From assembly GCF_009389715.1 (NCBI RefSeq), contig NW_024068034.1, forward strand, positions 62,001 to 126,000: a stretch of DNA of 64,000 nucleotides, in the 5' to 3' direction. Source of the DNA: Phoenix dactylifera (taxonomy: Eukaryota; Streptophyta; Magnoliopsida; Arecales; Arecaceae). The translations under genes were made by a program, and so were the position numbers. The notes under the pieces are model-generated. The model was not told where the DNA came from, searched no databases, and saw only the letters and a program-made list of their open reading frames with translations. This document shows, in pieces, positions 1-49,142 of this stretch. Position 1 is the first letter of the stretch, and every line of letters begins with the position of its first letter.

Positions 1-251
1 AGAAGCATTGTACAAGAGTTGTACACTCATCCATTTATATGTCACCAATAACTGTTAGGTGGGGCGGCATGTAAATCGATGAGACCGCAGTACCCACTAG
101 AAATCCTAGTCGCGTAGGGTTTTCGTTTCTCCATCAGGGGAGTATGAGGGATTCGAGAAAATAGTGGGAGCATATTTGTTTTAAAAGTCCCTAGAACAAA
201 TTAAGTTCAAGTACAAAGTCTAACTAGAATCTTTACTCTCTACAGATCACA
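1..251 (+). other. 5' untranslated leader of the copia element
   Basis: This stretch precedes the gag start codon and contains no long open frame. I looked for the usual initiator-Met primer binding site (TGGTATCAGA) and did not find it, so the leader is longer than what is visible here. Confidence 0.5.
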
Positions 252-3200
252 ATGTCAGCTTCAAACCCTTTGACCCGAATTCTTGAGACCAACAGACTGA
301 CCGAAACCAACTATAAAGACTGGCTTAGGAACTTGAAAATTGTTCTGAATTGTGAGAAAATAGGGTATGTGCTCGAGAATGATATCCCTAGGCTACCAGC
401 ACGTCCTACTGATGATCAGTGTGAGACGCATCAGAAGTGGACTGATGACGACATTAGGGTCAAGTGCTACATCATGGCATCCATGACTAATGAACTTCAA
501 TGCCAGCATGAGAACATAAAGACTGGTAGGAAAATACTGGCTCATCTGCAAGAGTTGTATGGTGAGCAGAGCCGCACTGCACGCTTTGAAGTGTCCAAGA
601 GGCTCTTCAAGGCAAAGATGCGTGAGGGGCAGTCTGTCCACGATCACTGTTTGACTATGATCAAGGACCTCGAGGAACTTGAGAAGCTCGGTATGTCCAT
701 GCATAAGGAACTGCAGATAGATCTGATCCTGCAATCCCTTCCTAATTCATTTGGTCAGTTTATAGTAAACTACCATATGAATAAAATTGAATGCACAAAG
801 ACCGAATTGTTGAATATGTTGGTAACTGCTGAAGGGGCCTTGAAAGGTTCAAGGGGCTCTGTTCTGGCTGCTGAGCTGACTTCTGGTTCCAAGAGAAAGT
901 CTACTTGGAAGAAAAAGAAGCCTGCTAAGAAGCAAAAGAAAGACAAGAAGCCTAAGAAGGAAGTTCACAAGAAAAGGGCTAATGAAAAGGGAAAATGTTT
1001 CCACTGCAACGTCGACGGCCACTGGAAAAGGAACTGCCCTTCATACCTCGAGAGCCTGAAGAACAAAAAGGCAGACACACCTTCTGAAGGTATGTTAGAT
1101 TTGCTCGTAATTGAAACTAATCTTACGGTTTCTTCTACTTCTAGTTGGGTTATAGATTCTGGTTCTAGTGCTCATTTGTGCACTACTATGCAGGATCTAA
1201 AGAAAAGTAGGAGGCTGGCGGAAGGTGCAGTGACCCTTCGGGTTGGCAACGGGGCAAGAGTTGCTGCTGTAGCTGTGGGCACCTACCCTCTGCGATTACC
1301 GTCTGGATTTAGTTTATTGTTTAGAGACTGTTATTATGTCCCTACTGCTAGCAGGAATTTGATTTCTGTTTCGTGTTTAGCACAGGATGGTCATGTTTTG
1401 ACCTTTGACAAAGACTGCTGTTCTATTTATTTCAGAAATAAATTAGTTGCACGTGGTTTCATGATTGATAGTCTCTATCACTTGCATATTGATGTGTCTG
1501 TGAATGTGTCTGAGCAAGTAGTGAGTGCCATAGGATCTAAAAGATCCAGAGATGAGATAAACCAGAAGTATTTGTGGCACCTCAGGCTTGGCCATATTGG
1601 AGAGGACAGAATGAACAAAATGGAGAAAGATGGGCTTCTTGGCCCATTGACTTCCGAGTCATATCCAGTTTGTGAGTCCTGTCTTCAAGGAAAAATGGCT
1701 AGATTACCCTTTGTAGGTCATGGGGAGAGGACCACTGAAATACTTACCCTGGTACACACTGATGTGTGTGGCCCATTCGATGTGCTAGCCAGGGGTCGTT
1801 ATTCATACTTCATTACCTTTACCGATGATTATTCACGATATGGGTATGTGTATCTTATGAGATACAAATTTGAGTCTTTTGAAAAGTTCAAAGAGTTCAG
1901 AAATGAAGTAGAAAAACAGACTGGAAAAACCCTTAAGGTTCTTCGATCAGATCGAGGAGGAGAATACCTTAGTGGGGAATTCCGGGATTATCTCAAGAAA
2001 AATGGCATAGTCTCACAATGGACACCTCCGGGTACACCTCAACTCAACGGGGTGTCAGAAAGGAGGAATCGGACTCTATTGGATATGGTCCGATCCATGA
2101 TGAGCTTCACTGATCTACCTATGTTTCTTTGGGGAGATGCCTTATTATCCGCAATTTATTTATTGAATAGAGTTCCCTCTAAATCCATTCCTACCACACC
2201 GTATGAGATATGGCATGGTAAGAAGCCGAGTCTTGGTCATCTCAAGATTTGGGGATGTCCGGCCCACGTTAAGCGACTACAGGTGGACAAGTTAGAGCCT
2301 AGGACCATAAGTGCTCGTTTCATTGGATATCCTAAAGAGTCATTAGGATACAATTTTTACATCTCAGAGGATCACAATGTGTTTGTGAGCCGACATGCCG
2401 TCTTTCTGGAAAAACAGTTTATCCTTGATAGAGGCAGTGGGAGAAAAATTGAGCTTGAAGAGAGAGTCTCTGAAAAGCAACGAGTCATGGATCCTATAGA
2501 ACCTATTCATACAGAGCCAGTACACGTAGTACCTCCTCCACCTCGTAGATCTAGTAGGGTCTCCCATCCTCCCGATAGATACTTAGGTATACTAGTAGAG
2601 GACACCGAGGAAATGTTCCTCATGGGAGATAGGGAACATGTACAGGATCCCAATACCTACGACGAGGCGATATCTGATATCGATTCCGAAAAATGGCTGG
2701 AAGCCATGAAGTCAGAGATAGACTCCATGTATTCCAACCAAGTCTGGACCTTAGTAGATCCACCAGAAGGTATAGTACCTATTGGATGTAAATGGATCTA
2801 TAAAAGGAAGATAGGTTCGGATGGAAAGGTAGAGACCTATAAGGCAAGGCTAGTAGCGAAAGGGTATAGTCAGCGCGAAGGCATTGACTATCAGGAGACC
2901 TTTTCACCTGTAGCCATGCTGAAATCCATTCGAACATTGCTTGCTATTGCAGCATTTCATGATTATGAAATATGGCAGATGGATGTGAAAACTGCTTTCC
3001 TGAATGGATATCTTGATGAAGATATCTATATGGAGCAGCCTTTGGGTTTCACTTCCAGTGATGGTGATCACAAGGTCTGCAAGCTGTGAAGGTCCATCTA
3101 TGGACTAAAGCAAGCATCTCGGAGTTGGAACACTCGTTTTAATGATGCGATCAAATCATTTGAGTTCATCAAGAACGAAGAGGAACCGTGTGTTTACAAG

Positions 3201-4220
3201 AAGGTTAGTGGGAGTGCTGTCGTGTTCCTCGTACTGTACGTGGATGACATCCTCCTGATAGGAAATGATATTCCTATGCTAACCTCGGTCAAGGTCTGGT
3301 TATCAAAAGAGTTCTCCATGAAAGACCTTGGGGAAGCATCCTACATTTTGGGGATAAAGGTCTATAGGGATAGATCTAAAAGATTGCTTGGCCTATCACA
3401 AAAGATGTACATAGAGGAGGTACTGAAGAGGTTCAGTATGGAAAACTCCAAGAGGGGTCTATTACCCCTTAGGCATGGGATTCATCTCTCCAAAAAGATG
3501 TGCCCCAACACATCTGAAGAGATTCAACGCATGAGCAGGATTCCTTATGCTTCTGCAATAGGAAGCCTCATGTATGCCATGCTGTGTACACGACCTGATA
3601 TAGCCCTTGCTGTGAGTGTCACTAGCAGATATCAGTCGAATCCAGGTGAAGAGCACTGGACAGCTGTGAAGAACATTCTTAAGTACTTGAGAAGAACTAA
3701 AGATTTGTTCTTGGTCTTTGGAGGAGCATCAGAGTTAAAGGTAGAAGGATACACAGATTCAGACTTTATGACTGATATTGATTATAGAAAATCTACATTT
3801 GGATATGTGTTCTTGTGCAATGGTGGTACGGTAAATTGGAAGAGTTCCAAACAACCGATCATTGCTGATTCTACCATGGAAGCTGAGTATATCGCCGCCT
3901 CTGAAGCTGCAAAGGAAGCCTTCTGGTTCAACAAATTCATTGCAGAGCTAGATGTAATGCCATCGGATGCCATCACGCTCTACTGCGATAATAATGGCGC
4001 CATAGCTCTTGCTAAGGAGCCAAGGTCTCATCAGAAGTCCAAGCACATAGAGCGGCGCTTTCACCTCATACACGAATACCTCGAGAAGAAATATGTCGAG
4101 GTGCAGAGAGTAGACTCCGCGGACAACGTGGCAGACCCGCTCACTAAACAGTTAAATCAGCAGAAGACAGAAGCCCACCTTGAGAAGATGGGACTTAGAT
4201 ATATGTCTGATTGGCTTTAG
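252..4220 (+). pseudogene. Copia gag-pol polyprotein with one in-frame stop
   Basis: A single frame runs from ATG 252 to TAG 4220 (1,323 codons) broken only by TGA at 3087-3089, inside the reverse transcriptase. Visible in order: gag (about residues 1-230); a lysine-rich stretch; a CCHC zinc knuckle starting near residue 249; protease with the D-S-G catalytic triad near residue 302; integrase with an HHCC zinc region and D-D-E core with a GxSERRNR motif (about 440-690); reverse transcriptase with the YVDD box at nucleotides about 3240; RNase H with TDSD, EAEY and CDNN motifs. The frame reopens straight after the stop, so nothing else is lost. The stop separates the N-terminal RT part from the YVDD box, so the product is probably inactive unless the stop is read through. 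Confidence 0.93.
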
Positions 4221-10482: not shown

Positions 10483-12938
<2,456 letters not shown>

Positions 12939-23999: not shown

Positions 24000-25010
24000 A
24001 GTACTATGAGCTAGAGTGTGATATTCGCCTTCAATAGAAGAATGGGCTATTGTTGGTTGTCTCTTAGCAGTCTATAAGATAGTAATGGAAATACACTAGC
24101 CATAAGCATTGGGTATCCAAGTCACTAGCCCAATCGACATCACAAAAGGTTAAAGATCCAAGGTACGCCAAGAAAATGCAAGATTCTCTTTACAACAATA
24201 AGATGATCGCATGTTGAGGCATGCATTGACTAGCAAGCTTAATTTACTTCAATGCACCAATGATACTTCAATATTAAAAGAATCCGATAGTGGATCACCA
24301 AACAAAGAGCATAATTTGTGAGAAGCACCATGGTAGAGCTGTATGATTTGAAATTAACTATAGTGGCTCAGTGGAGAAGATCCAGAGCTGCATATTTTGT
24401 TTGAGATAAAATAGTCCATCAACCATTGGTGATTTCAGTCCCCTGAAAATAGTGTAGAGGACCAATATCCTTTATGAAAAATTGAGAGCCAAGTTGACCA
24501 ATTAGATGGGTGATATAAGACCCATCATCCCCCATGGTCATAATATCATAAAATAGATTAATTAAATAGTTTTGTTTGATCGTGCCACCGAGCAAAAAGA
24601 ATTGATCAACATGAGTATCAGAGAAACCATGTTCAAGATAAAATTTGTGAGACAGTCGTACCAAGCTTATGGCATGTGCTTGAGATCATAGAGGGCTTTG
24701 TGAAGATTGCAGATATAATTAGGGTATTGGAGTCAACAAATCCTGGTGGCTGTGAAGAATGACATTAGGAAAAGTATTATTAACGTCAACTTGATGAATT
24801 GTCTCGCCAAATTGAACAACCAAAGCAAGTACCACTCGAATGGTAAAAGGTTTCTAGGATGAAAGTTTCGGAGTAGTCTAACCATATTATTGATTACAGC
24901 CTTCACAACAAGTCTAACCTTGTACCATATTAAAGTATCTTTTTTCTCGCCATTTAAGGCGATACACCCATTTACATCCTACTAAGCTCATATCTGGCAA
25001 GTAGAACACA
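24000..25010 (-). pseudogene. Copia reverse transcriptase / RNase H remnants
   Basis: Minus-strand frames encode RT pieces: a region with DVNN (about 24785-24800), an ALYDL region, and a 24419-24664 piece with HGFSDTHVDQF, FFIKDIGPLHYF and GTEI. Further along comes an RNase H piece (24000-24160) with CDVDWASDLDT and IEGEY-like parts. The catalytic YVDD box is degraded and several stops are present. Non-functional. Confidence 0.8.
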
Positions 25011-25558
25011 AGTGACTAACTACTATTTCATTGCAAAGCATTGAATTCTTCTATCATAGTAGAGCGCTATTCTGAATTCATGTTAATTGTAGAGAAGTAG
25101 ATGGGTTTAACCAAATTTGTAGTGGCTTGTATAGCAGAAGGTAATGGATGTTTTGTCGAGAAGACTTTCTTCTTACTAATGCCATACTTAGAGTGAGTGA
25201 TCATGGGATTTGCATTGGTAGCATGAGAGTGATGCAATTGTAACTTTTGGTCTGCTATTGGGATTATCGTAATCATGGGGAGTGGACTTAGGAACGGGGT
25301 TTGCAGCTATTCTGAGGGAATAGGAGGAATGGTACCTTGGCTAGAAATAGAGTGCCCAAGGAGGGCAAGAGATATGGGAGAAGTACATTAACTCGATCTA
25401 GCAATCATACCGCGATGACATCAAGTTGGTGATTGAGTTTTCATTGAGAGGTTCAGTAGTAGACTTCTGGAAGGCAAAGAAATACTCATCAAAGATAATG
25501 TGACATGAAATATAAATGCAACTAGTGGTGGGATCAAGGAAGCAATAGATTTTATGAT

Positions 25559-26173
25559 TCAAATTGTAACCAATAAAGACACACAGACGAGACCGAACTC
25601 CAACTTATGATTATTATGTGGCCTTAGCCAAGGAATGTAGGCACAGCCAAAGAAACGAAGGGAGGTGTAGTTTGGAGTGCAATGGAATAGTAATTCCCAT
25701 GGAGATTTCAATCCAAGGTTACATGGAGTCAAATGATTGATGAGATAAACCACTGAACTAAAGACATTAACGCAATAGAACAAGGGAATACAAGAATGAG
25801 ATAATAGAGCAAGATCAGTTGCAACATGATGCCTATGTTTACATTTAGCTTGAATGTGAAGACACAATAATTGATGGCTAATACCATGTCAAGAAAGAAA
25901 TGACCGAAAAGGATTACTGAAAAACTCTTTCCGGCAGTCTAATTGCAAAGTTTTAGTTTTGGTTTAAGTTGATTCTCAACTTTAGCTTTGAGTCTATAAA
26001 AATAGAGAAGACATCAGATTTGGCACATAAAGGAAACAACCAAGAATATCCCGACTTATCGGTGAAAAGGATATGATATCTAGAAACATCATCTGATAAA
26101 ATAGTAGCAGCACTTTGTTTAAATAATCCTTCAATTGAAACAGGTCGATTGCGAGTGAATAGCAGCTTTAAAT
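25559..26173 (-). pseudogene. Copia integrase remnant
   Basis: Minus-strand pieces at 25953-26173 (DDVSRYHILFTDKSGYSWLFPL-type core, KSDVF) and 25559-25867 (VYLINHL, SPWELLF, LRFFGCAYIPWLRP) match the integrase core and its C-terminal end in copia elements, separated by stops. The TRIM array cuts its upstream side at 26174. Confidence 0.8.
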
Positions 26174-28440
26174 TGTCACGCCCCCGCCTCTGCGAGGCAC
26201 GTGAGGCACCTAGTGCCCACGTGGGGGCCACATGAGGGGGGAACACGGGGCTCCCCTGCCAGATATTGTTCGGCTCTAGGGCTTCACGCAAGCGTCCTTC
26301 ACCCCTCCCCGGTTTTGTTTTCCACCCAAAACGCGTCTGCAGGATTTGGAGACACCCGCCTCATATGTCCAGGCTCTGGAACGAGTCTTTCCGATGTGGG
26401 ACTATTGGGCCTCACACCCTTCCCACCATCGGACAAGAGCCGTCCTCGGCTCTGATACCAAATGTCACGCTCCCGCCTCTGCGAAGCACGTGAGGCACCT
26501 AGTGCCCACGTGGGGGCCACATGAGGGGGAACACGGGGCTCCCCTGCCAGATATTGTCCAGTTCTGGGGCTTCACGCAAGCATCCTTCACCCCTCCCCGG
26601 TTTTGTTTTCCACCCAAAACGCATCTGCAGGATTTGGAGATACCCGCCTCATATGCCCAGGCTCTGGAAGAAGTCTTTCTGATGTGGGACTATTGAGCCT
26701 CACACCCTTTCCACCATCGGACAAGAGCCGTCCTCGGCTCTAATATCAAATGTCACGCCCCCGCCTCTGCGAGGCACGTGAGGCATCTAGTGCCCACGTG
26801 GGGGCCACATGAGGGGGGAACACGGGGCTCCCCTGCCAGATATTGTCCGGTTCTGGGGCTTCACGCAAGCGTCCTTCACCCCTCCCCGGTTTTGTTTTCC
26901 ACCCAAAACGCGTCTGCAGGATTTGGAGACACCCGCCTCATATGCCCAGGCTCTGGAACGAGTCTTTTCGATGTGGGACTATTGGGCCTCACACCCTTCC
27001 CACCATCGGACAAGAGCCGTCCTCGGCTCTGATACCAAATGTCACGCCCCCGCCTCTGCGGGGCACGTGAGGCATCTAGTGCCCACGTGGGGGCTACATG
27101 AGGGGGGACCACCGGGGCTCCCCTGCCAGATATTGTCCGGTTCCGGGGCTTCACGCAAGCGTCCTTCACCCCTCCCCGATTTTATTTTTCTCCCAAAACA
27201 CGTCTGCAGGATTTGGAGACACCCACCTCATATGCCCAGGCTCTGAAACGAGTCTTTCCAATGTGGGACTATTGGGCCTCACACCCTTTCCACCATCGAA
27301 CAAGAGCCGTTCTCGGCTCTGATACCAAATGTCACGCCCCCGCCTCTGCGAGGGACGTGAGGCACCTAGTGCCCACGGTGTGAGGCCCAATAGTCCCACA
27401 TCAGAAAGACTCGTTCCAGAGTTTGGGCATATGAGGCGGGTGTCTCCAAATCCTGCAGACGCGTTTTGGGTGGAAAATAAAACCGGAGAGGGGTGAAGGA
27501 CGCTTACGTGAAGCCCCAGAACCGGACAATATCTGGCAGGGGAGCCCCGTGTTCCCCCCTCATGTGGCCCCCACGTGGGCACTAGGTGCCTCACGTGCCT
27601 CAGAGAGGCGGGGGCGTGACATTTGGTATCAGAGCCGAGGACGACTCTTGTCCGATGGTGGGAAGGGTGTGAGGCCCAATAGTCCCCCAAATCCTGCAGA
27701 CGCATTTTGGGTGGAAAATAAAACCGGGAAGAGGTGAAGGACGCTTGCGTGAAGTCCCAGAACCGGACAATATCTGGCAGGGGAGCCCCGTGTTCCCCCC
27801 TCATGTGGCCCCCACGTGGGCACTAGGTGCCTCACGTGCCTCGCAGAGGCGGGGGCGTGACATTTGATATCAGAGCCGAGGATGGCTCTTGTCCGATGGT
27901 GGGAAGGGTGTGAGGCCCAATAGTCCCACATCGGAAAGACTCGTTCCAGAGCCTGGGCATATGAGGCGGGTGTCTCCACATCTTGCAGACGCATTTTGGG
28001 TGGAAAATAAAACCGGGAAGAGGTGAAGGACGCTTGCGTGAAGTCCCAGAACCGGACAATATCTGGCAGGGGAGCCCCGTGTTCCCCCCTCATGTAGCCC
28101 CCACGTGGGCACTAGGTGCCTCACGTGCCTCGCAGAGGCGGGGGCATGACATTTGGTATCAGAGCCAAGGACGGCTCTTGTCCGATGGTGGGAAGGGTGT
28201 GAGGCCCAATAGTCCCACATCGGAAAGACTTGTTTCAGAGCCTGGGCATATGAGGCGGGTGTCTCCAAATCCTGCAGACATATTTTGGGTGGAAAACAAA
28301 ATCGGGGAGGGATGAAGGACGCTTGCATGAAGCCCCAGAACCGGACAATATCTGGCATGGGAGCCTCGTGTTCCCCCCTCATGTGGCCCCCACATGGGCA
28401 CTAGGTGCCTCACGTACCTCGCAGAGGCGGGGGCGTGACA
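26174..28440. mobile_element. Palindromic tandem array of a TRIM (miniature LTR retrotransposon)
   Basis: Nine LTR copies of about 243 bp alternate with a 46-bp internal segment. Minus orientation: LTRs at 26174-26416, 26463-26704, 26751-26993, 27040-27283 and a truncated 27330-27377. Plus orientation: 27379-27621, 27668-27862 (internal deletion), 27909-28151, 28198-28440. In element sense each LTR starts TGTGAGGCCCAATAGTCCCA and ends GCGTGACA. The internal segment has a canonical initiator-Met primer binding site (TGGTATCAGAGCC) and a polypurine tract (GGTGGGAAGGG). TAAAT flanks the entire array on both sides (26169-26173, 28441-28445). No coding capacity; movement would need enzymes from another element. 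Confidence 0.9.
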
Positions 28441-29039
28441 TAAATGACCTTGTTTACCCTATAGATCATACAATAAACAATACCATTTGGCACATCAAGA
28501 GGCATTGATGAGTAATATTAGTAAAATTGGCTGATAGGTAATGTTAATAAAGGTAGGACGATGGATTCTGGCTATAAAAGGTTAAGGTATAAATAATCCA
28601 AAAGAAAGTGTTGTACCATTAGGATAAAGAAGGATGAATAGTTGTATCACCAAAATCCAATCTTATACAAATTGATGAAGTTACAAAGGGCTGAAATTGG
28701 TTTATGTGTCGTCATGCTGCAAGTGAACATAGGCAGTTAATGAAGAGTCAAAGAGAGATTTCGAATTTGAAATTAAAGCTCATAACTGACAAGAGAAATA
28801 AAATAGTAATGTTAACCAACCATGACACATGGCGAAGATGGGAATTCAGATGCCTCCTAGCAGTTAATGGTAGAATGTGGAGAGGAGAGTATAAAGATCA
28901 TAAATTGTAAAGAACAAAGGCTTCTTTTCGAATATCATTATGAATGAATCTTTATTTCTGATATTCAATATTTTTATTTCCTCTTTGTTATCTTTTAATT
29001 TTCAGTAGTATAGGTAACATTCTACTAATCAAAATCCTT

Positions 29040-29569
29040 CGAGCTCAAGGCATTCATCCTCCTCTTCCATCTGCTTTTGATAAAAAGAGTGAAACAAACT
29101 CGCACTCACCATGTAAGCTATTCAAATTGTGGAAAATTAAGTTGATGTTATCAATTGGTTTGCCTATGGCGGCAAGACAATCAGCAAGGTGCTTGATACG
29201 CTGGAGATAGGCAGTCAGAGAGTATATCTTCTTCTCTGTTCCTTGTAGATCATATTTTAGTTGGATAACGTGAGAGGCTGAGAGGGATAAGCATTGTTGC
29301 TCAAATGCAAGCCAAACTACGTGACCAGTGTTGCATTAAACCAAGAGGAGTTAATCTTGCTTTCCACTCTTTATACTTCAGATTTTCATCAAGTTTTCCA
29401 TTGGAGCTTTTAACATATTCCTCCGGACATAGGAATGTGCAATCAATGAATCCCAAAGACTTGTGGGATCAGAGGACTGGAAGAAACAGAACTGCCGAAA
29501 AAGATAGCTGTGGTTATCCAATTTAATGGAAACAAAATGAGAGATATTAGAGACGGTGAGCAGGGACAA
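29040..29569 (-). pseudogene. Copia gag remnant
   Basis: Minus strand 29378-29569 encodes a gag N-terminus (ISHFVSIKLDNHSYLF). 29040-29330 encodes the later UBN2-type gag part (LRLQGTEKKIYSLTAYL-like, then DCLAAIGKPI). The two parts are in different frames. The 28441-29040 stretch between here and the TRIM array is the decayed remainder. Confidence 0.75.
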
Positions 29570-29609
29570 GGTGGAAATATGGAGGACTATTGGCAGGCGT
29601 CAGTTGATG

Positions 29610-29621
29610 TCTGCTCTGATA
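29610..29621 (-). other. Primer binding site of the minus-strand copia
   Basis: On the minus strand the site reads TATCAGAGCAGA, matching the initiator-Met tRNA primer site used by copia elements. It lies just inside the 5' LTR and upstream of gag. Confidence 0.65.
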
Positions 29622-29829
29622 CATATTTCTAGTCGTATAACATGATCATATTCTCAAGATTGATGAGATCGAAGAAAAGCAAAATGGAAAGTAATGGAAA
29701 AAAGCACCACTATGGTTATTATACAAGGATGGAAAGGCATCAAGATATTTGGAAGAAAAGATAAAGTTGGTAATCTATAATAGTAAGAAAGATCCAATGA
29801 ACTAATTTTTAAAACTAAATCCGAATTCA
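29622..29829 (-). repeat. 5' LTR remnant of the minus-strand copia
   Basis: Shares ordered blocks with 22945-23150 and 23660-23703. Ends are estimated from the primer binding site on one side and loss of similarity on the other. Confidence 0.5.
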
Positions 29830-30235
29830 AGGCTTACGTACCCTTAACAGGGACTTTGATAATCCACTCTCCTTGAGATGAAGTAGAAGTGGTAGAGAAG
29901 CTGCCATGGTCAATTTGTCGAACAGTCAAATGAAGTGATGCGTTTGCCCACCTTTGCTTCAGAAATTTGGAAAAGAAAATGTTGGACTGTCACTGTTAGT
30001 GGTTCCATCACCTCTATTTTGTCCAGATAAAAAGAGTAGCTTTTGACTAGTTCTTGGGTTGTCTGGCATCTGGCCACAAAATTTTATCTAAGGGTACAGC
30101 ATTTATGGATTTGCAAGTCACTGCAAGCATACCCATCATCTACTTTAGGAAGTCGTAAGCACCAAATTGGCCACAAGTTAATGGCTTTTATTGTTTCACT
30201 AATTCTCCTAGGCTCCATCTGCCCATTGGCGCCAC
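29830..30235. other. Intergenic upstream of the GA 2-oxidase gene
   Basis: No gene or repeat recognised. It would be the promoter of the upstream exon proposed at 30473 if that exon is real. Confidence 0.35.
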
Positions 30236-45065: not shown

Positions 45066-45291
45066 AGAAAGCAATACGGTCAGCTCTTGAAGGCATCGAG
45101 GCACAGCATCAGGCCAAGGCCAGCATCTCTCCTTCCTTCTGAGACGCTAATGTAGAATCCCAGCATCTCTCCCTTTCTGTTAGAAAAAGAAAGGTATAAT
45201 CTCTGCCCGAAGCAACCTCCCAGTTCTCTTTCCTCCCTCCAAGCCCCCATTTCTCCCTCTTAATCCGCCCAAGAAGAGTGCCACCTTCGCC

Positions 45292-48200
45292 ATGGCTTCG
45301 CCCGCAATGCCACCGCTCCCTGGGCTCTTCGCACCTCCCATCCTCCACTCCACCCTCGACCGCTTGGCCTCCCACCTAAACACCCTTCCCCCCTCGTCCT
45401 CCGGCCTCGAGCAACCACTCCAAACGCTGCACTGCGCTTTGCTCCGCGCCACGGAGACGATTCCAACCAAAACCCCGTGTTCGCCCGACCTCATGAGCCA
45501 ACTCAGAGACGCTGCCTACGCTGCCGACGACTTGGTTGACGAGCTCGAGTACAGAGCATTGCAACAACGAGTGGAGGAGATGGCCAAAGCTTCAGCCGAC
45601 CAAACACCTGGTGGCCTCAATCTCTCTGTATTCAAAGGCTTCCAAACCGGCGAAGAAGACGCCGTGTATCAGCCTGTAATCCCAAGCCAGGCTAGTGGGG
45701 AATCCTCGGTCACCGCGTCTGGTGGCTCTGCCGTTAACCAGGCTGGCGGCGGATCCTTGGCGCCGGTATCCGACGGTACCGGCACCGGCACTGGCGGCGA
45801 AGGTGAAGGAAACCAAACAAATCGTGCAACCGGCAAACACGGCTCGCATAAGAGAATCAGTGGATCCTTGTCAACTCTATGCAGCTGCTTTCATGGTAGA
45901 GATGGTCTCACAGATCGAACAGTCGGTGCATCCTCTAATTCTATTCAAGCTGGAGAGCATGCTGACAAACGGTCAAGCAAATCGATTCGTAAAATTTTCA
46001 AGTGGAGGCGCAAGGAAGTTGTCCGCCATCAAGTTGGTGATGATGCTATGAACCAGAAAGTTGGATCCCCTGCTACTTTGCGAGATGATGCCAACAAGAA
46101 CCGCTTCAACCAGGGAAAGGATGATCCAAGTTCTACTCAAAACAATGCCAATTTGCAGGCTGATGGTGATGCCATGAAGGAGGCAAGTGGCTCCTCAGAT
46201 TCGACGCACAAGGATGATGAAGGTACCACCGACCAGGTAACCGATTCTAAGCTACCAGAAATTTCTTATGAAAAAGTCATTGCAAAAAGGATAGAGAAAA
46301 TTACAGGGCAACTAGACCTTATTTCTAGTCAATGGAAGGATGCCTTGAACATTCCAGGAATGGATAGTGATCTTAGAGGACCACCTGAGAAGTCGAACGG
46401 CTGTAGGATTACCTCAACCGTTAAGCAAGGGGAGGTATATGGTCGCGATGGTGAGAGAGAGCAGTTGGTAAGGATGTTGTTGGATTCGGGAGATTGTGGC
46501 GAGAATGTACCTGTCATTCCGATATTTGGTGCGGGGGGTGTGGGCAAGACAACTCTTGCTCAGTATGTGTATAGCGATAAACGAGTCGAGAAATATTTCC
46601 ATTCAAGTTTGTGGATTTGTGCCTCCGATGATATTAATGTGATGAGGATTGCAGGAGTGGTTTTGGGGCCTTCTCCCACTTCTAGAGCCAATGAAGTCTC
46701 TCAACTTGAAAAGCTAGACTTCCTGGAAGGGATTCTAAAGGAGGAGCTGAAAGGAAAGAGGTTCTTGCTTGTGCTCGATGATGTTGAGAGCATCGAGTGG
46801 ACAACGCGCTTTGCTGCTATAAAATCTGGTCAAAGGGGTAGCAAGATTGTGATGACAGCGAGAAGGGAAGAAGTGGTAGATGAGGAAGTTAAGAGGAGCA
46901 AAATTGTTTTGGAGGGTTTAAAAGGGGATGATTTTGGTTACTCTTCAAGAAATGTGCATTTGGTGATGAAGACCCGGATAAACACCTAGAGTTGCAGAGG
47001 ATTGGGAAGGAAGTAGCTGAAAAGCTGAAGGGCTCGCCGTTGGCAGCAAAGGTGGTGGGAGGGCTGTTGCAAGTTGATATGGATGCTGGCCACTGGACAA
47101 ACATTTTAGGAAGTGACTTATGGGAGTTAGGAAAGGACCCCCATGACATTATGCCATCTCTGAGATTAAGTTATCAATACCTACCTTCTCATCTCCAATG
47201 GTGCTTTGCCTATTGTTCAGCATTTCCCAGAGGTTACCCATTTGATGTCGACAAGTTGGTCAACATATGGATCGCCCAGGGATTAATTCAATCAAAGAAC
47301 ACGAACAAGAGACCGGAGGATGTAGGACGAGAGTACCTCAGTGACTTGGTATCCAGGTCTCATTTCGAAATCCCCAACTATAGGAAATCTTACTGGCAAG
47401 GAAGATACCATGTGATGCATGATTTGATGCATGAATTGGCAGTATCTGTTTGTTTGGATGAATGCCTCATATATGAAGGTAAGGAGTTAGGAATCATGCC
47501 AAAGACAATTCGCCACTTATCTGTATCTCATTGGGCTGGACCTGATTTCCTTTCTGAATGGGAGAGCTTGCGAACCCTCATGGTTAACTCCATGCATGGC
47601 ATAGATTTTGGAGCACTGAGAAGCATCCGGGTGCTAGATATATCTTACAGCTACATGAGGCAGCTGCCGGATGCTGTCAGTCATCTGATACATCTTCGAT
47701 ACCTGGACCTTTCAGGCAATAATATTTACAGTTTACCTGAATCACTGTGTAGGCTCTACCATCTACAGTCACTGATAGTACCAAATACATGTCGCAGATT
47801 ACCTAAAGGGTTGACCAGTCTGATCAACTTGCGGCATCTCAGCGCAAGTGATGAAGCAGTTTCTTGGATAGCTGGAATTGGGAGGCTCACTTGCCTTCAG
47901 GAATTGAAGGAATTTCATGTCAGAATTGTCAGAGGACATGACATCGGACAGTTGAAGAACATGAGGGAGCTTAGAGGCCAGCTTTGCATTCAGAGTCTCG
48001 AAGATGTGGGAAGCAAGGAAGAGGCGATTGAGGCTAACTTGAAAGATAAAATCCATATTGAAAAGTTGCAACTGAAATGGAGCCGGTGGATGCGGAAGAA
48101 GGTCAGGACTGATGCGCAGGAGATACTTGAGTGCCTCCAACCACCACCTCTTGTCAAAGAGCTGGAGCTCCACTGGTTCAGAGGTGCCCAGTCTCCGAGT

Positions 48201-49142
48201 TGGCTAGCAGCACAATCTCTCCGGTCGTTGCAGTCTATTCATCTAAGAGGCTGTGAAAGGTGGCGGCGCCTCCTGCCTCTTGGGCAGCTGCCTGTTCTTG
48301 AGGTTCTCCACATGGAAAATATGGATGTGGTAGTTGATGGAGGTGATGCGGTCGTTGAGATGTTTCCATCCTTGAAGGAGCTATGGTTGGTTGACATGTC
48401 GGTCTTGTTTGAGGGCATCTCATTTGAAGACCAAGGTCGCAAGTTTTTTCACCACCTTCGAAGGTTAAAAGCTCTGAATTGCCGTAAGGTGAAAGGATTA
48501 CCCCCACTTTCCATGCTTTCATCACTAGAAGAGCTTGAGGTGAAAACGTGTCCGGATCTTGAAAGTGAGCTGCCTGAATGTTTGAAGGTCCTCACTTCTC
48601 TTTCCTCACTAAAGATGTCAGCACCAAAGCTAACATACTTCCCAGGGGAGGTAATGCAGTACCTAAAACAGTTGGAGGTTGATGGATGTTCAGATCTCTC
48701 GTCCTGGTTGGTTGAGGAGAAAGATGAAGCTGGAAGGTCATCACTCATCTCTCTGAGCATCATTGAAACACCCCTGCCCACAGGACCAATCCTCATGAGA
48801 TACCTCACCTCCCTCAGAGAGTTGAAAATTGACCGTTGCTCCAAACTCACATCCTTCACCACCGAGCAGAAAGAGTGGTTTAAAGGCCTCACCTCACTCG
48901 AGGAGCTATGCATCTCCAATTGTAAGAATCTCATGTTCCTTCCTGTGGAGCTTCATGAACTTCCCTCTCTGGAGAAGTTGGCCATAACATATTGTCCTAT
49001 GATACGAGCTTTGCCTATTGGCTTGCCTACCTCATTGAAAAAGTTGGACATTTGGGGATGTAATCCGGCATTGATAGCACAATGGCAACATGAAGGAGCT
49101 CCTGATTGGGTCAAACAAATTCCTTACAAATCTATTTATTGA
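45292..49142 (+). pseudogene. CC-NB-LRR disease resistance gene with one frameshift
   Basis: An intronless gene for an intracellular immune receptor of the RGA/CNL class. Seen before the break (45292-46934): Rx-type N-domain ending LRDAAYAADDLVDELEY; a long low-complexity linker (about residues 105-330); P-loop GAGGVGKTT near residue 413; kinase-2 FLLVLDDV; RNBS-B GSKIVMTA. After the break, in another frame (46935-49142): GSPLAAKVVGG, RNBS-D CFAYCSAFP, MHD (HVMHDLMHELA near 47410) and about 15-20 leucine-rich repeats to the stop. The break is a one-base loss in the T run 46932-46935. Everything else is intact, so it is a young null allele, a polymorphism or a sequencing error. Confidence 0.92.

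Follow-up and report, generated by a model that had tools for sequence, protein, structure and literature searches.

A palindromic TRIM array in Phoenix dactylifera, probably integrated as one pre-formed cDNA, and its recurrence at other loci

Arrays in which LTRs and internal segments alternate and neighbouring elements share LTRs are known from maize Wukong (PMC4528315), Cassandra (PMC7215508), tandemly arrayed TRIMs (TA-TRIMs; PMC4717578) and tandem LTR retrotransposons (PMC11899658). In the parts of these reports available to us a single orientation is the rule, with the LTRs of Wukong arrays usually pointing one way (PMC4528315) and Cassandra arrays running head to tail (PMC7215508), unlike the palindromes described here. 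The accessible text of the last of these reports does not settle the way in which arrays of tandem TRIMs and LTR retrotransposons arise; complex insertion and recombination were indistinguishable for the case at hand (PMC11899658). The closest described system is maize Zma-SMART, where one inverted TA-TRIM with a single target duplication, CTTCA, was validated by PCR and sequencing; one inverted tandem TRIM flanked by a duplication has thus been published before (PMC4717578, available part). The family studied here resembles it in that two TRIMs are inverted as one unit with one duplication; the available part of that report (PMC4717578) gives one example, with no junction, polarity or mechanism, whereas the present family has nine such loci, which follow a polarity rule, differ in their junctions and often have longer arms.

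A search of titles and abstract openings in the open-licence literature returned no earlier report of recurrent palindromes with the U5 end outermost on both sides (hereafter U5-out). Two further systems offer points of comparison. In retroviral two-LTR circle junctions, where cDNA ends are joined, the LTR ends keep unprocessed bases; the joints described here differ in lying inside integrated elements and in many of them running U3 side to U3 side. Retroviral minus-strand strong-stop DNA can prime itself by folding back at self-complementary sequence, giving a side product, and a similar priming from a 3' end is proposed here to yield integrated palindromes.

The palindromic block and its TRIM family

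The window, the whole 64,000-nucleotide stretch analysed, contains a block with exact bounds at 26174..28440, made of nine LTRs (five minus, four plus) and seven 46-bp internal segments. The original prediction had described nine LTRs of a 243-bp class alternating with 46-bp internals, arms meeting at 27377/27379, TAAAT on both flanks of the whole block and mirror-image outer LTR ends, and every part of it is present at the coordinates it gave. The count of nine takes in one 48-bp stub and one deletion derivative. The features are as follows.

26169..26173, no strand: target duplication TAAAT, left copy, from the sequence
26174..26416, minus: LTR m1, its outer end the U5 end (TGTCACGCC...)
26417..26462, minus: internal m1/m2, 46 bp, PBS-like TGGTATCAGAGCC and a purine tract
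26463..26704, minus: LTR m2
26705..26750, minus: internal m2/m3
26751..26993, minus: LTR m3, reference copy for later comparisons
26994..27039, minus: internal m3/m4
27040..27283, minus: LTR m4
27284..27329, minus: internal m4/m5
27330..27377, minus: LTR m5, a 48-bp stub of the U5 side alone (LTR positions 196-243)
27377..27379, no strand: head-to-head junction, 1-bp overlap, extra G at 27378
27379..27621, plus: LTR p1
27622..27667, plus: internal p1/p2
27668..27862, plus: LTR p2, 195 bp, with a 48-bp internal deletion
27863..27908, plus: internal p2/p3
27909..28151, plus: LTR p3
28152..28197, plus: internal p3/p4
28198..28440, plus: LTR p4, its outer end the U5 end (...GGGGGCGTGACA)
28441..28445, no strand: target duplication TAAAT, right copy, from the sequence

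At the junction, position 196 of the minus-side LTR meets GG-TG of the plus side, with one G common to both, and the plus side starts 1-2 nt ahead of the LTR's TG; we take this GG to lie where a U3 cDNA end would be expected before processing. Mean divergence among the LTRs of the block is ~6%, and the insertion therefore looks old. A second contig (C662, locus L009) carries the same block, flanks, TAAAT duplication and joint; the two copies align over 6587 bases with 97% identity and 9 gaps, and the 48-bp deletion seen in LTR p2 of the window is missing from L009. The palindrome therefore predates the split between these two copies.

The 243-bp LTRs read TGTGAGG...GTGACA. In the internal segment, the PBS-like TGGTATCAGAGCC begins two bases after CA and presumably fits initiator tRNA-Met, and GGTGGGAAGGG precedes the next TG. 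The repeating unit of 289 bp (243-bp LTR plus 46-bp internal) leaves no room for gag or pol, and the open frames in the block, taken from the ORF list by direct reading rather than by protein-family search, run through the repeat itself. A TA-TRIM is defined by at least three LTRs, at least two internals and one duplication, and the block has nine, seven and TAAAT. Identity with Cassandra, whose LTR carries a 5S rRNA-like sequence, was rejected, with no 5S Rfam match in 25000-30000 up to E 1. The weak Rfam matches in that interval, MIR7724 (E 0.06; 27251-27411, across the joint) and RFPL3-AS1_2 (E 0.7), are far under their gathering scores and were taken as chance.

The internal-domain pattern has 944 matches with at most two mismatches in the genome searched (G000; 773 Mb, 2391 contigs), 451 forward and 493 reverse, against 0 for the control. 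Two sequence variants were seen along the way. An LTR subfamily with a different middle (a GC-rich stretch near 116-135) and otherwise like this TRIM occurs at L029, L035, L036, L042, L043, L052, L064 and L067-L069, and the LTRs of the L012 array largely alternate between two sequence types, like a repeated dimer.

Recurrence, outer polarity and joints

We examined 61 loci of the family, counting the window and L009 as one. The 100 listed places of the internal pattern are exact matches on contigs C1-C4. The sample consists of 20 regions chosen among listed matches with preference for multi-copy and mixed-strand ones, 20 loci formed by the listed C1 places, two regions chosen for mixed strands, and 19 further loci on C2; systematic fetching covered C1 and C2 to 26.42 Mb, the exact-match loci of C2 beyond that point and of C3 and C4 lying outside it. 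Orientation switches at 13 of the 61 loci. In the systematic sets the figures are 1/20 on C1 (L032) and 6/22 on C2 to 26.42 Mb (L014, L050, L055, L057, L066, L069), the 22 including three loci fetched earlier, of which L015 is the third. The switching loci are listed below with their outer ends, duplications and head-to-head joints, the joints being given in coordinates of the unit (LTR 1-243, internal 244-289), some of them read by eye.

Window: U5-out; TAAAT, perfect; joint 196/288
L010: U5-out; ATATT, perfect; joint 131/121
L011: U5-out; AATCA, perfect; joint about 16-28/268
L013: U5-out; ATATT, perfect; joint 242/10
L014: U5-out; GTACG, perfect; joint 22/21, filler bases
L050: U5-out; GCAAT, perfect; joint 29/8 around a 1.39-kb insert, counted by hand
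L057: U5-out; CTCAG/TTCAG, 4 of 5 bases; joint about 194/214
L069: U5-out; CATAC/CATAT, 4 of 5 bases; joint 289/about 110-128, filler
L049: U5-out; no duplication; joint 164/about 268, filler
L012: normal outer ends, inverted inner piece; ACAAA, perfect; joint 21/287
L032: normal outer ends, inverted inner piece; CTTTT, perfect; joint 210/54
L055: normal outer ends, inverted inner piece; GTGGG, perfect; joint 79/112
L066: normal outer ends, inverted inner piece; AAAAT, perfect; joint 1/50

The palindrome is thus not unique to the window locus in this genome: a survey for other inverted multi-LTR arrays, suggested with the original prediction, yields eight further U5-out loci, all with different junctions. 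Nine of the 13 switching loci are U5-out, four have normal outer ends and none is U3-out (nine against none, two-sided p 0.004 if treated as coin tosses). U3 at both ends was found neither among these 13 nor at any other examined locus, and U3-out palindromes should have been equally visible to the same searches; some one-way blocks among the 61 loci end truncated or foreign. A perfect 5-bp duplication flanks 10 of the 13 switching loci; among the nine U5-out loci six duplications are perfect, two match at 4 of 5 bases and one is missing.

All 13 head-to-head arm-end pairs differ from one another, so the palindromes arose independently and repeatedly. (Of 14 head-to-head rows found automatically, the window and L009 share one joint and L029 is a chance short match; L050 is absent from them because of its insert.) Arm ends fall at LTR 16-29 in 5 of 26 cases (P 0.007) and at the U3 terminus in 4 of 26 (P 0.0004), both landmark windows having been chosen after the joints were seen. 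The four arm ends at the U3 terminus are those of the window, L012, L069 and L066, the last being the first base of the LTR, without the extra G. LTR 16-27 is the 3' side of a predicted stem across the purine tract (PPT) and the start of U3, which is as stable in 0 of 100 shuffles when the 532-nt LTR-internal-LTR RNA is folded, and in 13 of 200 when it is folded locally. In this fold the L011 joint would match a minus-strand 3' end that paired with its stem partner and was then extended, bar one mismatch. Overlaps at the joints measure 6 in L032, 6 in L057 (by eye) and 4 in L011, and 0-2 or filler elsewhere; random joins of the unit give at least 6 in 0.27% and at least 4 in 2.1%. The L057 overlap, CACGTG, rests on reading by eye, and the reference copy differs from L057. 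The plus arm of L014 is a single LTR ending at position 21, and in L057 the minus arm consists of 50 nt of U5 that fold back at CACGTG, as would be expected of unfinished minus strands. Loop asymmetry compared with random reaches P 0.05 only.

Ends of a second kind occur inside the arrays. Among 27 kept head-to-tail or tail-to-tail joints, 11 have their U5 side at CA-TT within one base (P ~3e-12), or 10 of 26 when distinct joints are counted; 62 rows with a gap >3 or a shift <20 had been dropped, the foreign-LTR rows of L021 and L030 falling under the shift rule, and the 14 head-to-head rows were listed apart. The TT consists of the bases before the primer site and is missing from the outer integrated ends, and the CA-TT joints therefore look as if they were made on linear cDNA. 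The CA-TT end is joined to three different partners at L010 and meets an inverted LTR at L032, and at L023, L033 and L059 two LTRs are joined head to tail through ends that are still unprocessed, CATT-GGTG. The unprocessed end is missing from the tail-to-tail joints of L055 (CA, no TT) and L066 (CA-T). CA-TT is also native LTR/internal sequence, so internal deletion at GG could account for some TTTGG-TG joints. What an unprocessed cDNA end looks like is taken here from general background.

Arm kinship and age were compared at nine switching loci (the window, L010-L014, L032, L049, L050) and L009, leaving out L055, L057, L066 and L069. The two arms are mutually nearest, at rank 1 of 43 sampled loci from both sides, at L011, L012 and L014; those of L013 rank 1 and 3, and those of the young L010 rank 4 and 6, of 43. 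At older loci the ranks are 29 and 23 of 42 (window), 30 and 26 of 42 (L009), and, of 43, 35 and 29 (L032), 24 and 23 (L049) and 19 and 23 (L050). The arms are thus close relatives at four of the five youngest loci tested, which is not demonstrable at the older ones, where private mutations dominate the comparison. Measured against the low-divergence copy L026, the arms lie at 0.030/0.037 in the window, 0.013/0.012 in L010, 0.017/0.018 in L012, 0.046/0.044 in L049 and 0.032/0.027 in L050, with the least even pairs in L013 (0.025/0.015; one and two LTRs) and L032 (0.032/0.046; ten and one). Judged by these distances, the two arms are of similar age at most of the nine loci compared.

At L050, a single GCAAT duplication bounds both arms and, between them, 1.39 kb of foreign sequence, with many copies in the genome (best other 98% among the matches listed, 40 of 825 first-look candidates). 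Its open frame matches Integrase_H2C2 and SH3_Tf2-1, with RT_RNaseH just under the cut-off, and we read it as probable Ty3/gypsy pol. Followed along one strand, TRIM minus sequence gives way to the insert, which reads as minus-strand cDNA, and then to TRIM plus sequence, the arrangement to be expected if synthesis had switched to a co-packaged RNA. This foreign pol insert, the polarity rule and the truncated junctions are additions beyond the earlier reading.

Formation of the palindromes

We consider it highly probable that the window block represents one integration of a pre-formed palindromic TRIM cDNA. In this model, two multi-LTR cDNAs, at least one of them incomplete, would have been joined at their U3 sides before integration, so that each tip of the resulting linear duplex was a normal U5 end. 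Integrase would then have trimmed these two U5 ends and inserted them together in a single event, leaving the TAAAT duplication. Such an integration would explain the ends, the duplication and the polarity together. The original prediction had favoured a pre-formed palindromic molecule integrating by LTR ends at both sides, and this reading gains support from the eight further U5-out loci with no U3-out counterpart, from perfect duplications at 6/9, and from similar arm ages at most tested loci. Against a single integration count the lack of a duplication at L049 and the arms that are not mutually nearest at the window, L009, L032, L049 and L050, with ranks of 4 and 6 at L010.

For the joint itself, the route we prefer, at roughly even chances, is reverse transcription: a minus strand left unfinished would anneal through its 3' end, over a short stretch of self-complementarity, to a second minus strand within that particle, or would fold back on its own sequence, and this 3' end would then be extended back to the U5 end. 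We prefer this origin because U5 is the start of the minus strand and always intact, and unfinished strands stop at the U3 side. The anatomy, the recurrence, the U5-out polarity, the duplications, the differing joints and the unprocessed ends within arrays are observed; that the joint forms in a particle, which enzyme makes it, and that mutual priming rather than end joining is at work, we infer. Weighing against a reverse-transcription joint are the post hoc landmark windows, the presence of overlaps of at least 4 at only 3 of 13 head-to-head joints (one by eye), and the filler bases. More broadly, we tentatively propose, at somewhat less than even chances, that palindromic two-U5 cDNAs are a regular reverse-transcription product of this family: co-packaged unfinished minus strands would prime each other and might take up helper pol RNA (as at L050), integrase would accept two U5 ends, and tandem as well as inverted TRIM arrays would be built before integration rather than afterwards.

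The main rival to joining by reverse transcription is that two finished linear cDNAs were end-joined in the nucleus at their U3 ends, with only the U5-U5 dimers integrating well. The CATT-GGTG joints of L023, L033 and L059, the filler bases at L014, L049 and L069, and the position of the window, L012 and L069 joints at the U3 terminus all speak for it; we nonetheless hold it rather unlikely, since only 4 of 26 head-to-head arm ends reach the U3 terminus, most being truncated, and since nine U5-out against no U3-out loci need a separate reason. Autointegration, in which a cDNA end that had already been processed would attack a second cDNA, or its own molecule, ahead of integration of the product, would account for the L066 joint at the first LTR base without the extra G and for the L055 tail-to-tail U5 end at CA without TT, both as processed ends, yet the other 12 of 13 head-to-head joints are truncated or carry extra bases, and we regard this route as very unlikely.

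Other readings dispense with a pre-formed molecule. Recombination has been proposed for the maize Wukong TRIM arrays (PMC4528315, available part), and one ordinary insertion might likewise have grown by unequal crossing over and been partly inverted in place, which L012, L032, L055 and L066, with their normal outer ends and inverted inner pieces, would fit. By our reasoning, though, a simple inversion would leave a broken LTR at the duplication rather than a complete U5 end; complete U5 ends lie on both sides at nine loci, and the L050 insert goes unexplained. Growth by recombination alone was rejected on the outer ends, and we think growth with inversion improbable. Two independent adjacent insertions in opposite orientation, with flanks alike by chance, would suit L049 and its lack of a duplication; a 5-bp match by chance has a probability of ~0.0014 per locus (rounded base frequencies), yet is seen at 6/9, arm ages are similar at most tested loci and arm sequences are similar at four young loci, which together leave this reading with minimal probability. 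Equally slight is the chance of an assembly artefact: assembly is difficult where nearly identical copies form arrays, but the same block stands on two contigs at 97% identity with small gap differences, which argues against an artefact, and target duplications flank palindromes on several contigs.

For this TRIM family, the joints help decide between complex insertion and recombination. U5-out palindromes with a single duplication, and unprocessed cDNA ends at joints, are marks not expected from post-integration recombination. They also suggest that integrase is able to insert molecules whose two ends are alike. Each palindromic locus holds a long inverted repeat, a putative source that could give rise to double-stranded RNA. 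Self-silencing through stronger methylation-type mutation was considered and set aside, with no clear difference in CHH between switching loci (0.38; nine of them and L009) and the rest (0.35), six loci being left out.

Chimeric junctions and neighbouring features

Junctions with foreign sequence occur at further loci. At L052:1604, a diverged TRIM LTR runs straight into the RNase H part of the L050 pol family (90% identical). Near 2487 in L039, a TRIM array of five LTRs has its U3 end fused to a foreign LTR-like end (GTGACATTTAGGG), with pol of the L050 family at a distance of 3 kb. In the fetched stretches, a search for outer ends that would share a joint duplication around these TRIM-Ty3 chimeras gave no clear match. 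There are also TRIM internals whose primer site TGGTATCAGAG adjoins the end of another LTR-like sequence, of which at least three kinds occur (L021, L030, L040, L018, L065; also L033, L051, L053), as if elements packaged together had undergone a plus-strand transfer from one to the other.

Elsewhere in the window, 228-4220 holds a Ty1/copia-like polyprotein in two adjoining frames split at 3089/3090 (named by reading the translation), and 11565-12925 a polyubiquitin gene of six head-to-tail units (named by reading), with four 247-bp tandem repeats ahead of it at 10588-11575. At 45184-49142, two overlapping frames read like a coiled-coil NBS-LRR disease-resistance protein.
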